From contig OX485807.1 of NCBI GenBank assembly GCA_950295325.1, positions 3,352,501 to 3,416,500 on the forward strand: a stretch of DNA of 64,000 bases. Reading direction: 5' to 3'. The notes under the pieces are model-generated. The model worked only from the letters and a program-made list of their open reading frames with translations, was not told the DNA's origin and made no database searches. Positions 23,546-37,987 of the stretch are shown here, one piece after another. The position numbers were made by a program, and so were the translations under genes. Numbering within the stretch: position 1 is the stretch's first letter; every line of letters begins with the position of its first letter. The stretch comes from Polytrichum commune. Lineage: Eukaryota > Streptophyta > Polytrichopsida > Polytrichales > Polytrichaceae.

Positions 23546-23795
23546 TTAATAGGGAGAATGCACGGGATCACTTTAGTGTGATAGCTTGTTTGGGATATGT
23601 GACAAATTCATATTTCTTGCACCTTGCCATCTATGGTCCACCCAATCATAGTGGTATATGTATATGGGCGAACCAACATTATCTCAACCAACCATGTGGG
23701 AACTTAGGGGCTCACCCTCGTAGGAAATAAGTGTGGGGTGATTTGTCCGTGTCCGTTCAAGGTGTTCACCTTTAAAAGGAGGCATTGGTCTTCAT
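23546..23795 (+). mobile_element. 5S-rRNA-derived retroposon, copy 2 (diverged)
   Basis: The 3' two thirds (CTATGGTCCACCCAATCATAG, CCATGTGGGAACTTAGGGG, TTCACCTTTAAAAGGAGGCA) align in order with the element in the GDPD intron at 37184. The head is badly eroded but keeps pieces that fit 5S rRNA (AATGCACGGGATC, GCTTGTTTGGGA). It could be a 5S-headed SINE or a solo Cassandra-type LTR. Confidence 0.55.
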
Positions 23796-36700: not shown

Positions 36701-37987
36701 TTGCACCCACTTCTCTCATCCAGGCCTCCAAGCTCACGGACTCGCCATTGATCTTACTGATCGATGGCATCGACAAATTCACTCAAGATACTAATCAGGT
36801 GAGTGACCCCTTTCATGCCTTGCTTTCATAATTGTACCACATATTTGAAACTTGCCAGGATTTGGAGTGAAGAGTGCTCTTCATGTTGATCTGGTGGCAA
36901 AATTCGCAGACTTTCAGCGAGATTACGTCTGATGAATACTTTCAATTCATCAGCAAGTATGTGGTGGGCTTGGGCCCTTGGAAGGACACAATTGCGCCCC
37001 CTGATACCCACAACTATATTACCAAACCAACTGATTTCGTAACAAGGGCCCATGCTCATGATCTTCAGGTGAGCTTCCTGGCTCTCTTCTCAGGTGCGTG
37101 TGTGTAAATGTAAATACTGTCATAATCTGCAAGATCTCTTTCTAATATTGATGAGCCTCCTATGCCTTTCATTGCACAGTCTAGGGTGGCTTAAACCTGA
37201 GCCTTTACTTGGATCCCATAGGAACTGCAAGATTAAGCCACCTAAGGCCGGAATAGTGCTAGGATGGGAGACCTTCCTCGCACTTGATTTCCGGTGTGTC
37301 CTACCACCTATGGTCAACCCAATCGTAGTGGGGGTATCTGGGTGAACTATATATTTTCAATCAACCATGTGGGAACCTAGGGGTTTGCCCTAGGGGGAGA
37401 TAGGTGCATGCCTGTGCATGCCTGCTTGTCCACCCCCGTCCAAGGCTTTCACCTTTGAATGGAGGCAATAGACTTCAGGGACCCTCTAATTCTCATAATG
37501 CCCGTTTCAGGATTACACATAGACTTAGACCAACTCGAAAATGAAGCAACACCTTAATTCACGCCAGTGACAACATGAGAGTCTTTTTGTTTTTGTTTTT
37601 TTTTTCATTTAAATTTTTTTTGATAAATTTTGCGCAGTCTACGAGAGCATGATTTTTTTTGCTTATCTGTTTTGTGAGTTTAGCTACTGTTAAATACACA
37701 ATGGCACAGACAGATTTGCTGCAGTTTTCCACAATCATCACCTGTCTTCTCACTTTGTCACTTTCAGAAGAAGCTACCTTGATTCCTGCACTTTGAGATT
37801 TAATGCAATGATACTGCAGGTGCATCCCTACACATTTCGCAATGAATTTCAATATGTGCATTTTGACTTCCACCAAGATCCATATCAGGAATATGAGTAC
37901 TGGATGCACAAGATCTGCGTGGATGGTCTGTTCACAGATTTTGCTGGAACGCTCCACTTGTATCAAGAGTGGACATATCCCCATTGA
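33751..37987 (+). CDS. Glycerophosphodiester phosphodiesterase (GDPD), secreted, about 392 aa
   Basis: Inferred exons: 33751-33781, 34027-34259, 35104-35287, 35413-35487, 36347-36456, 36580-36798, 36910-37068 and 37820-37987 (TGA). Exons 2-8 are well supported by GT-AG signals, phase and similarity to plant GDPD5/GDPD6-type proteins. Exon 1 is a prediction: exon 2 has no in-frame ATG and a stop lies just upstream, while ATG 33751 followed by a GTGAGT donor joins in phase. A hydrophobic stretch (about 22-33) gives a signal peptide or anchor. The catalytic histidine lies in [16 protein letters not shown] (about 69-84), metal ligands in GADFIETD (about 94-101) and the second histidine in LICFHD (about 110-115). 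Conserved downstream blocks: [40 protein letters not shown] and [14 protein letters not shown]. The enzymes hydrolyse glycerophosphodiesters to glycerol-3-phosphate and an alcohol, often during phosphate starvation or at the cell wall. The MITE-like hairpin (intron 4) and 5S retroposon (intron 7) do not disturb coding. Confidence 0.9.
35661..35755. repeat. Hairpin (16 bp perfect stem) in GDPD intron 4
   Basis: CCTGCCACAGGCTGTA at 35661-35676 is the exact reverse complement of TACAGCCTGTGGCAGG at 35740-35755. The 63 nt between them includes a second short stem (CTACC / GGTAG). It may be a tiny MITE or a structured intronic RNA. No TSD seen. Confidence 0.65.
37184..37510 (+). mobile_element. 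5S-rRNA-derived retroposon, copy 1, in GDPD intron 7
   Basis: The head (37184 to about 37306) is a clear relative of 5S rRNA from its first nucleotide. It opens GGGTGGCTTAAACCTGAGCC, keeps GGATCCCATAGGAACT, AAGATTAAGCC (box A region) and GTGCTAGGATGGGAGACCT (box C region), and ends GGTGTGTCCTACC. A non-5S body follows (CTATGGTCAACCCAATCGTA, ACCATGTGGGAACCTAGGGG, TTCACCTTTGAATGGAGGCA) and is shared with 23546-23795. A head starting at the RNA 5' end favours a 5S-headed SINE. The main alternative is a solo LTR of a Cassandra-type TRIM, whose LTRs also carry 5S sequence. It is in the same orientation as the host gene. No TSD was identified. Confidence 0.75.

Follow-up and report, generated by a model that had tools for sequence, protein, structure and literature searches.

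A probable 5S rRNA-headed SINE family in the moss Polytrichum commune and its candidate partner LINE

The window analyzed here is a 64-kb stretch of DNA (C5:3352501-3416500) from a moss genome of 408 Mb in 64 contigs, seven of which are large. On contig C8, full-length PsaA and PsaB genes lie next to each other, and the best PDB matches of this plastid PsaA are chains 6l35 (with 7ksq, 7kux, 7xqp) and 8htu (1634 bits, followed by 1609 and 1569), entries of the moss Physcomitrium patens, in agreement with a moss host. It contains a retroposed element of about 446 bp (37184-37629, plus strand), which is very probably a copy of a 5S rRNA-headed (SINE3-type) SINE family of this moss. The element has a 5S-like head and belongs to a family with sharp ends, target-site duplications and a T-rich tail, and the same genome contains a LINE with a similar 3' end as well as two fusions of 5S rRNA with LINE sequence. 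The following features were identified in the window:

37172-37183, plus strand: 5' target-site duplication TTGCACAGTCTA, adjoining the first element base, identical in 11 of 12 positions to 37630-37641
37184-37307, plus strand: degraded 5S rRNA-derived head, 124 nt (alignment to the host 5S gene with shuffles; family consensus; full-model RF00001 match in copy L013)
37231-37273, plus strand: remnant of the 5S internal promoter, from box A-like GATTAAGC to box C-like GGATGGGAGACC (window letters and consensus compared with host 5S)
37308-37560, plus strand: family-specific body (30-copy alignment; profile match)
37561-37586, plus strand: 3' hairpin region, matching in position the 3' hairpin that a LINE from the same genome carries
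37587-37629, plus strand: T-rich 3' tail (TTTC repeats in other copies)
37630-37641, plus strand: 3' target-site duplication TTGCGCAGTCTA, identical in 11 of 12 positions to the 5' duplication
23607-23794, plus strand: second, older copy, a body fragment covering profile positions 102-285 (profile of 30 copies)
37069-37819, plus strand: host intron (GT...AG, 751 nt) with the element in sense orientation; the flanking exon stretches translate in frame

The core of the element ends at about 37586 and its T-rich tail reaches 37629, so that the end set at 37510 in the initial annotation has to be moved downstream, and the length of about 446 bp is above the earlier figure. The alignment score of the duplication flanking the element was equalled by 8 of 2000 shuffles. 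The joined exon stretches on both sides of the intron match PF03009 (GDPD, E = 1.7e-9), pointing to a glycerophosphodiester phosphodiesterase gene as the host. A profile of 30 family copies, applied with E-values up to 1e-3, matches only two places in the 64-kb window, 37184-37585 (profile positions 1-393, E = 3e-126) and 23607-23794 (profile positions 102-285, E = 3.2e-42). The latter match is in line with the initial annotation, according to which the body recurs upstream behind an eroded head; in this copy nearly the whole head is gone, and the last 109 profile positions are missing as well.

Genome searches with the window copy and with the family consensus as queries yielded matches at all scored places (40 of 40 in both cases, with rough first-look counts of 1560 and 2726 candidates, respectively). 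The 39 other places scored with the window copy are 76-79% identical to it, and the 40 places scored with the consensus are 86-90% identical to the consensus. The copies are dispersed over all seven large contigs (C1-C7), and the alignment of 30 of them demonstrates a constant head-body-tail structure present in multiple copies, in which the core measures about 394 nt and the tail is of the TTTC type. In the 30 oriented copies the similarity starts at GGGTGGCTTAAA, while the preceding DNA is unrelated. The start falls on profile position 1 in 22 copies, on position 2 in five and later in three, that is, on position 1 or 2 in 27 of 30, as would be expected for a 5' end fixed at the 5S start. 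The 30 copies are the best matches to a query starting near the 5' edge, hence this selection favors full length, but not the edge itself.

At the 3' end the SINE terminates with GAGTCGTC, followed by TTTC repeats or their decayed form. The exact tail motif with TTTCTTTC is found at 50 genome places, and the reversed pattern at none. Three of these places are among the copies already collected; 20 of the other 47 were fetched, and all 20 proved to be family copies, some of them truncated or with internal deletions. Three places with tail matches lacking upstream SINE letters were considered as LINEs and rejected: they are decayed copies of the SINE, and two of the three belong to a duplicated segment.

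The mean distance from the consensus is 0.136 substitutions per site for the 30 copies and 0.177 for ten copies chosen by their tails, with 0.096 for the closest copy. Given this divergence, the family looks old, and at the distance of the closest copy no active copy is demonstrated. Two SINE fragments are present in the 64-kb window and two in 36 kb of flanks of loci chosen without regard to the SINE (L031-L042), which scales, as a rough estimate, to a genome total of the order of ten thousand fragments. Two segments (L064, C1:52951464, and L065, C7:41485094) are 94-96% identical and have SINE copies in the same places; therefore, these insertions predate the segment duplication.

Target-site duplications were scored by their length minus three per mismatch, with mis-paired flanks serving as the control. 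Of 53 copies entered (30 and 23), both ends were recognizable in 42, and 11 were dropped. A score of at least 9 was observed for 9/42 copies vs 0/420 mis-paired flanks, at least 8 for 11/42 vs 3/420, at least 7 for 15/42 vs 11/420, and at least 6 for 20/42 vs 36/420; the test with 30 copies gave 8/30 vs 1/90 controls at score 8. The duplications with scores of at least 9 are 9-13 bp long and end at most 3 nt from the first element base, which corresponds to the variable length anticipated for a SINE. The absence of a duplication of score 9 in the remaining 33 of 42 copies is expected for copies so decayed, but proves nothing. Moreover, in locus L021 a SINE copy is inserted in another SINE copy, and profile positions 254-264 of the host copy are present on both sides of the insertion, forming an 11-bp duplication.

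The resemblance of the head to 5S rRNA, noted in the initial annotation, holds against shuffled sequences. The window head (124 nt) aligns locally with the host 5S gene with a score of 56, compared with a mean of 15.0 (sd 2.3) and a maximum of 25 for 1000 dinucleotide shuffles, and the family consensus scores 83 with a shuffle maximum of 33 (1000 shuffles). The additional claim that the head starts at base 1 of 5S is not carried by the strong local match, which covers approximately 5S positions 14-96 and stops short of base 1. It is, however, upheld by the global alignment to host 5S, in which the head begins at base 1, and by the terminal helix, retained with a paired change (GGATG/CATCC in the host gene, GGGTG/CACCC in the SINE, compared by eye). 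The Rfam model 5S_rRNA covers copy L013 over the full model (1-120) from the first base of the element with 25.8 bits, which falls short of the gathering score (38), with E = 0.0053 in the 701-nt scan and E = 0.5 in the 20-locus scan. L013 is the sole Rfam 5S match among the 20 copies scanned, and the scan of the window produced no 5S match for the window copy and none at gathering thresholds. Taken together, the global alignments, the terminal helix and copy L013 support base 1 of 5S as the probable start of the head.

In addition, a search with the SINE profile recovers the four host 5S genes that were fetched, all of them with E-values between 1.1e-15 and 6.1e-15. The consensus is identical to host 5S in 34/49 positions of the segment 1-49, 2/2 of 65-66, 7/7 of 73-79 and 13/22 of 98-119. 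In the promoter boxes the agreement is 9/15 positions in box A, 6/6 in IE and 15/18 in box C. The head and the host 5S gene have GGCCGGAATAGTACT in common, whereas an angiosperm 5S sequence used for comparison differs there; the overall score of the head is 93 against host 5S and 78 against this angiosperm sequence. At ACTCCGA the SINE agrees with the latter and not with the host gene. The Cassandra box A motif, as given in a passage of PMC7215508, is absent both from the SINE consensus and from the host 5S gene, while the box C motif from the same passage is present in the host 5S gene and absent from the SINE consensus.

Some other features were observed around 5S-related sequences. A snoRNA match (RF00353, 47.8 bits, gathering score 45) lies on the minus strand of L031 (1993-2085), about 370 nt from a host 5S gene. 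Four dispersed stretches closely resembling one another (L128, C2:59433593; L131, C7:14288127; L134, C4:54347759; L135, C1:23658934) contain a divergent 5S-like unit, which in three of them forms a tandem pair with the units 183-186 nt apart; these loci differ from the SINE, possibly representing another 5S-derived element.

The candidate partner of the SINE is a class of LINEs (L097-L102, L123) comprising an endonuclease, a reverse transcriptase (RT) and RNase H. The long reading frame matches an apurinic-type endonuclease (PF14529, E = 1.6e-7; the match to PF03372 is below the cut-off) and RT (PF00078, E = 6.5e-33), and a sub-threshold PCIF1-like stretch and then RNase H (PF00075, E = 3.9e-15) are found downstream of RT. 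The closest PDB proteins of this RT are R2 and LINE-1. Three LINE RT elements align with each other up to a pyrimidine (CTTTT-type) tail, and 20 further 3' ends were fetched from the 40 places listed (890 candidates). The consensus of the resulting 23 ends finishes in GAATTCACGCCGGTATTTAAATACGGGCGTTA followed by T/C runs, and its hairpin shows, by eye, compensatory changes in L107, L108 and L110. The SINE finishes in TAATTCACGCCGGTGGCAACATCGGAGTCGTC followed by TTTC repeats, and a hairpin can form there: in the 40 parsable copies out of 50, standard pairs occupy 300/360 pair cells.

The SINE and LINE consensuses have a 13-nt word, AATTCACGCCGGT, in common, located 18 nt before the tail in each, and a match of this length was obtained in 0/5000 shuffles. 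One letter of the word is the majority in only 12 of the 23 LINE ends. The gapped scores of the SINE against single LINE 3' ends are 34, 32 and 30, none above the 95% shuffle level of 35, and among 1000 shuffles at least one reached the ungapped score of 13 obtained with mismatches. The shared end is based on the 13-nt word standing in the same register in both consensuses, on the position of the hairpin and on the tail. In these respects the 3' end appears LINE-like, a feature that the initial annotation had named as a mark of a SINE.

Two other groups of RT loci were rejected as partners. The eight zf-RVT loci (L035-L042) resemble the SINE 3' end in nothing more than short words; the single profile match among them, located in L041, represents a separate head copy, and a run of ten A occurs downstream in 2/8. 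The class L094-L096, which we take to be L1-like, has a poly(A) end in 3/3, with a pyrimidine run about 60 nt before the poly(A) end in L096.

The genome contains 29 places matching RF00001. The 14 weakest, situated in 12 stretches, were fetched, and in two of these stretches, L124 and L126, 5S rRNA is fused to the 3' end of a LINE. In L124 (C5:46184588), 5S nucleotides 1-116 are followed by about 120 nt that belong to a LINE 3' end, with a score of 73 as compared with at most 40 in shuffles. L126 (C1:70893029) starts with a nearly complete 5S and, after a few bases, continues into a hairpin end resembling that of the LINE and into TTTTTC repeats (score 36, at most 32 in shuffles). The scores of their target-site duplications were equalled by 1/2000 and 9/2000 shuffles, respectively. 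In the search with L124, 39 of the 40 scored matches (out of 280 candidates) are confined to one of the two parts, 5S or LINE, and in the search with L126, 20 of 21 matches extend no further than query position 130, which lies within or slightly beyond the 5S part; among the scored matches only the own locus of each spans both parts. Each of the two loci looks like a one-off outcome of the process from which the SINE arose, in other words, a failed birth of the same kind.

Apart from a 5S-headed SINE, the element could be a solo LTR of a Cassandra-type TRIM, with the 5S promoter belonging to the LTR. Cassandra occurs in plants and has 5S boxes in its LTR (as described in a passage of PMC7215508), and its primer-site word TGGTATCAGAGC is found at 1127 genome places vs 21 for the reversed pattern, due to which LTR elements using this primer probably exist in the genome. 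Nevertheless, a primer-like site with at most two mismatches was observed in 0/30 loci between -50 and +250 nt of the 3' end. A single fragment is present at 28/30 loci; the two loci with a further same-strand fragment are the nested insertion L021 and adjacent fragments in L022. No common sequence precedes the 5S start in the 30 copies, only two of them start with TG, and the best-supported duplications are of 9-13 bp, not 5. Besides, no TRIMs were found in Physcomitrella, according to a passage of PMC4717578. On the basis of the 30 copies, with single fragments and no primer site, we reject the solo LTR, whose probability appears very small. The preference of the initial annotation for a 5S-headed SINE is thereby strengthened, given the fixed 5' end (27/30), the variable duplications, the LINE-like tail and the primer site in 0/30. 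It is likewise very unlikely that the copies are 5S rRNA pseudogenes and the body is mere flanking DNA. Although dispersed 5S genes and 5S-like pseudogenes do exist in this genome, copies on all seven large contigs have one and the same body (about 270 nt) and tail behind the head. By contrast, the DNA downstream of the four fetched 5S genes and of the 5S-like pseudogenes is different; the common body and tail refute this explanation.

With the element taken as a 5S-headed SINE, the identity of its mobilizer has to be considered. The SINE may have been moved by another LINE, in which case the 3' ends, being short hairpins, would resemble each other through convergence. In favor of this, the word in common has a length of only 13 nt and is present as a whole in only 3/23 single LINE copies, the gapped alignment is not significant, and the SINE and LINE hairpins are unlike in the loop and the 3' arm. 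On the other hand, the distance to the tail is identical, the hairpins are in the same place, and the pyrimidine tails are similar; the other RT class whose ends were viewed finishes in poly(A) (3/3), and two fusions of 5S with LINE tails are present in the same genome. We consider mobilization by another LINE rather unlikely, and, judging from the sequences, the LINE with the endonuclease, RT and RNase H is the likely mobilizer of the SINE.

From these observations we infer Pol III transcription, dependence on the LINE and birth by template jump. The internal promoter, resembling that of 5S, would direct RNA polymerase III to begin at the head's first base, and an RNA of about 400 nt would be made, with the 3' hairpin and the pyrimidine tail at its end. 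The reverse transcriptase of the same-genome LINE, whose own RNA ends alike (with the hairpin in the same place and a T/C tail), would recognize this end. The apurinic-type endonuclease would nick the DNA, and target-primed reverse transcription of the RNA would insert the copy, with duplications of about 9-13 bp as the result. The family itself was probably born by a template jump, in which a reverse transcriptase of this kind would have passed from a LINE 3' end onto 5S rRNA; the two 5S/LINE fusions in the genome suggest that such jumps happen.

SINEs of the SINE3 type, headed by 5S rRNA, have been described in vertebrates and some insects (passages of PMC7245038 and PMC10886601), including the lepidopteran families HaSE3 and PxSE4 (PMC10886601, same passage), and 5S rRNA-related SINEs have been reported in Aspergillus fumigatus (passage of PMC5063351). 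The moss SINE resembles SINE3 in the 5S head, an unrelated body, the LINE-like 3' end, variable duplications, short length and dispersal, the likeness of the 3' end to a LINE being apparent rather than firm, and differs in its host, a land plant. The partners reported from animals are CR1, I and RTE (passage of PMC7245038), whereas the likely partner here is a plant LINE with an apurinic-type endonuclease, RNase H and a pyrimidine tail. HaSE3, PxSE4 and the Aspergillus fumigatus SINEs, likened by description, have a 5S head and are separate lineages; they come from other kingdoms.

p-SINE1 and Au, which have tRNA heads, are similar to the moss SINE, again by description, in being plant SINEs whose 3' end is T-rich and lacks poly(A). 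The partner LINE of these T-tailed plant SINEs is called unidentified in a passage of PMC3747384. Plant SINEs are nearly all tRNA-derived (passage of PMC10741241), a search for 5S-derived SINEs in maize is described as "without success" (passage of PMC2774510), and SINEs with 5S promoters are cited as an animal matter in a passage of PMC10853983. Cassandra TRIMs of ferns and seed plants likewise have a 5S-derived internal promoter (passages of PMC7215508 and PMC10853983); in Cassandra, however, the 5S is situated inside an LTR and accompanied by a tRNA primer site, while LTR pairs, the primer site and an upstream LTR were not seen in the 30 SINE copies. No plant 5S-headed SINE was found in the literature searched, which consisted of open-license PMC papers. 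The element kind is thus already known from animals and one report on a fungus, and what is new, with respect to the papers searched, is the plant host.

We find it somewhat probable that this is the first 5S-headed SINE family of a land plant, produced when the reverse transcriptase of a LINE with an apurinic-type endonuclease, RNase H and a pyrimidine tail jumped onto 5S rRNA, and that at least three such fusions have formed in this moss, one of which was amplified. On that reading, the family would show that the proposed donor type of the Cassandra promoter can exist in plants, and would provide an example of a T-tailed plant SINE together with its partner LINE. A passage of PMC10886601 speculates that the 5S promoter of Cassandra came from a SINE3 inserted in an LTR, and a plant 5S-headed SINE makes this origin testable. 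The same applies to the question which LINEs move plant SINEs with T tracts. Finally, the fusions found once each open the birth of a SINE to study before amplification.
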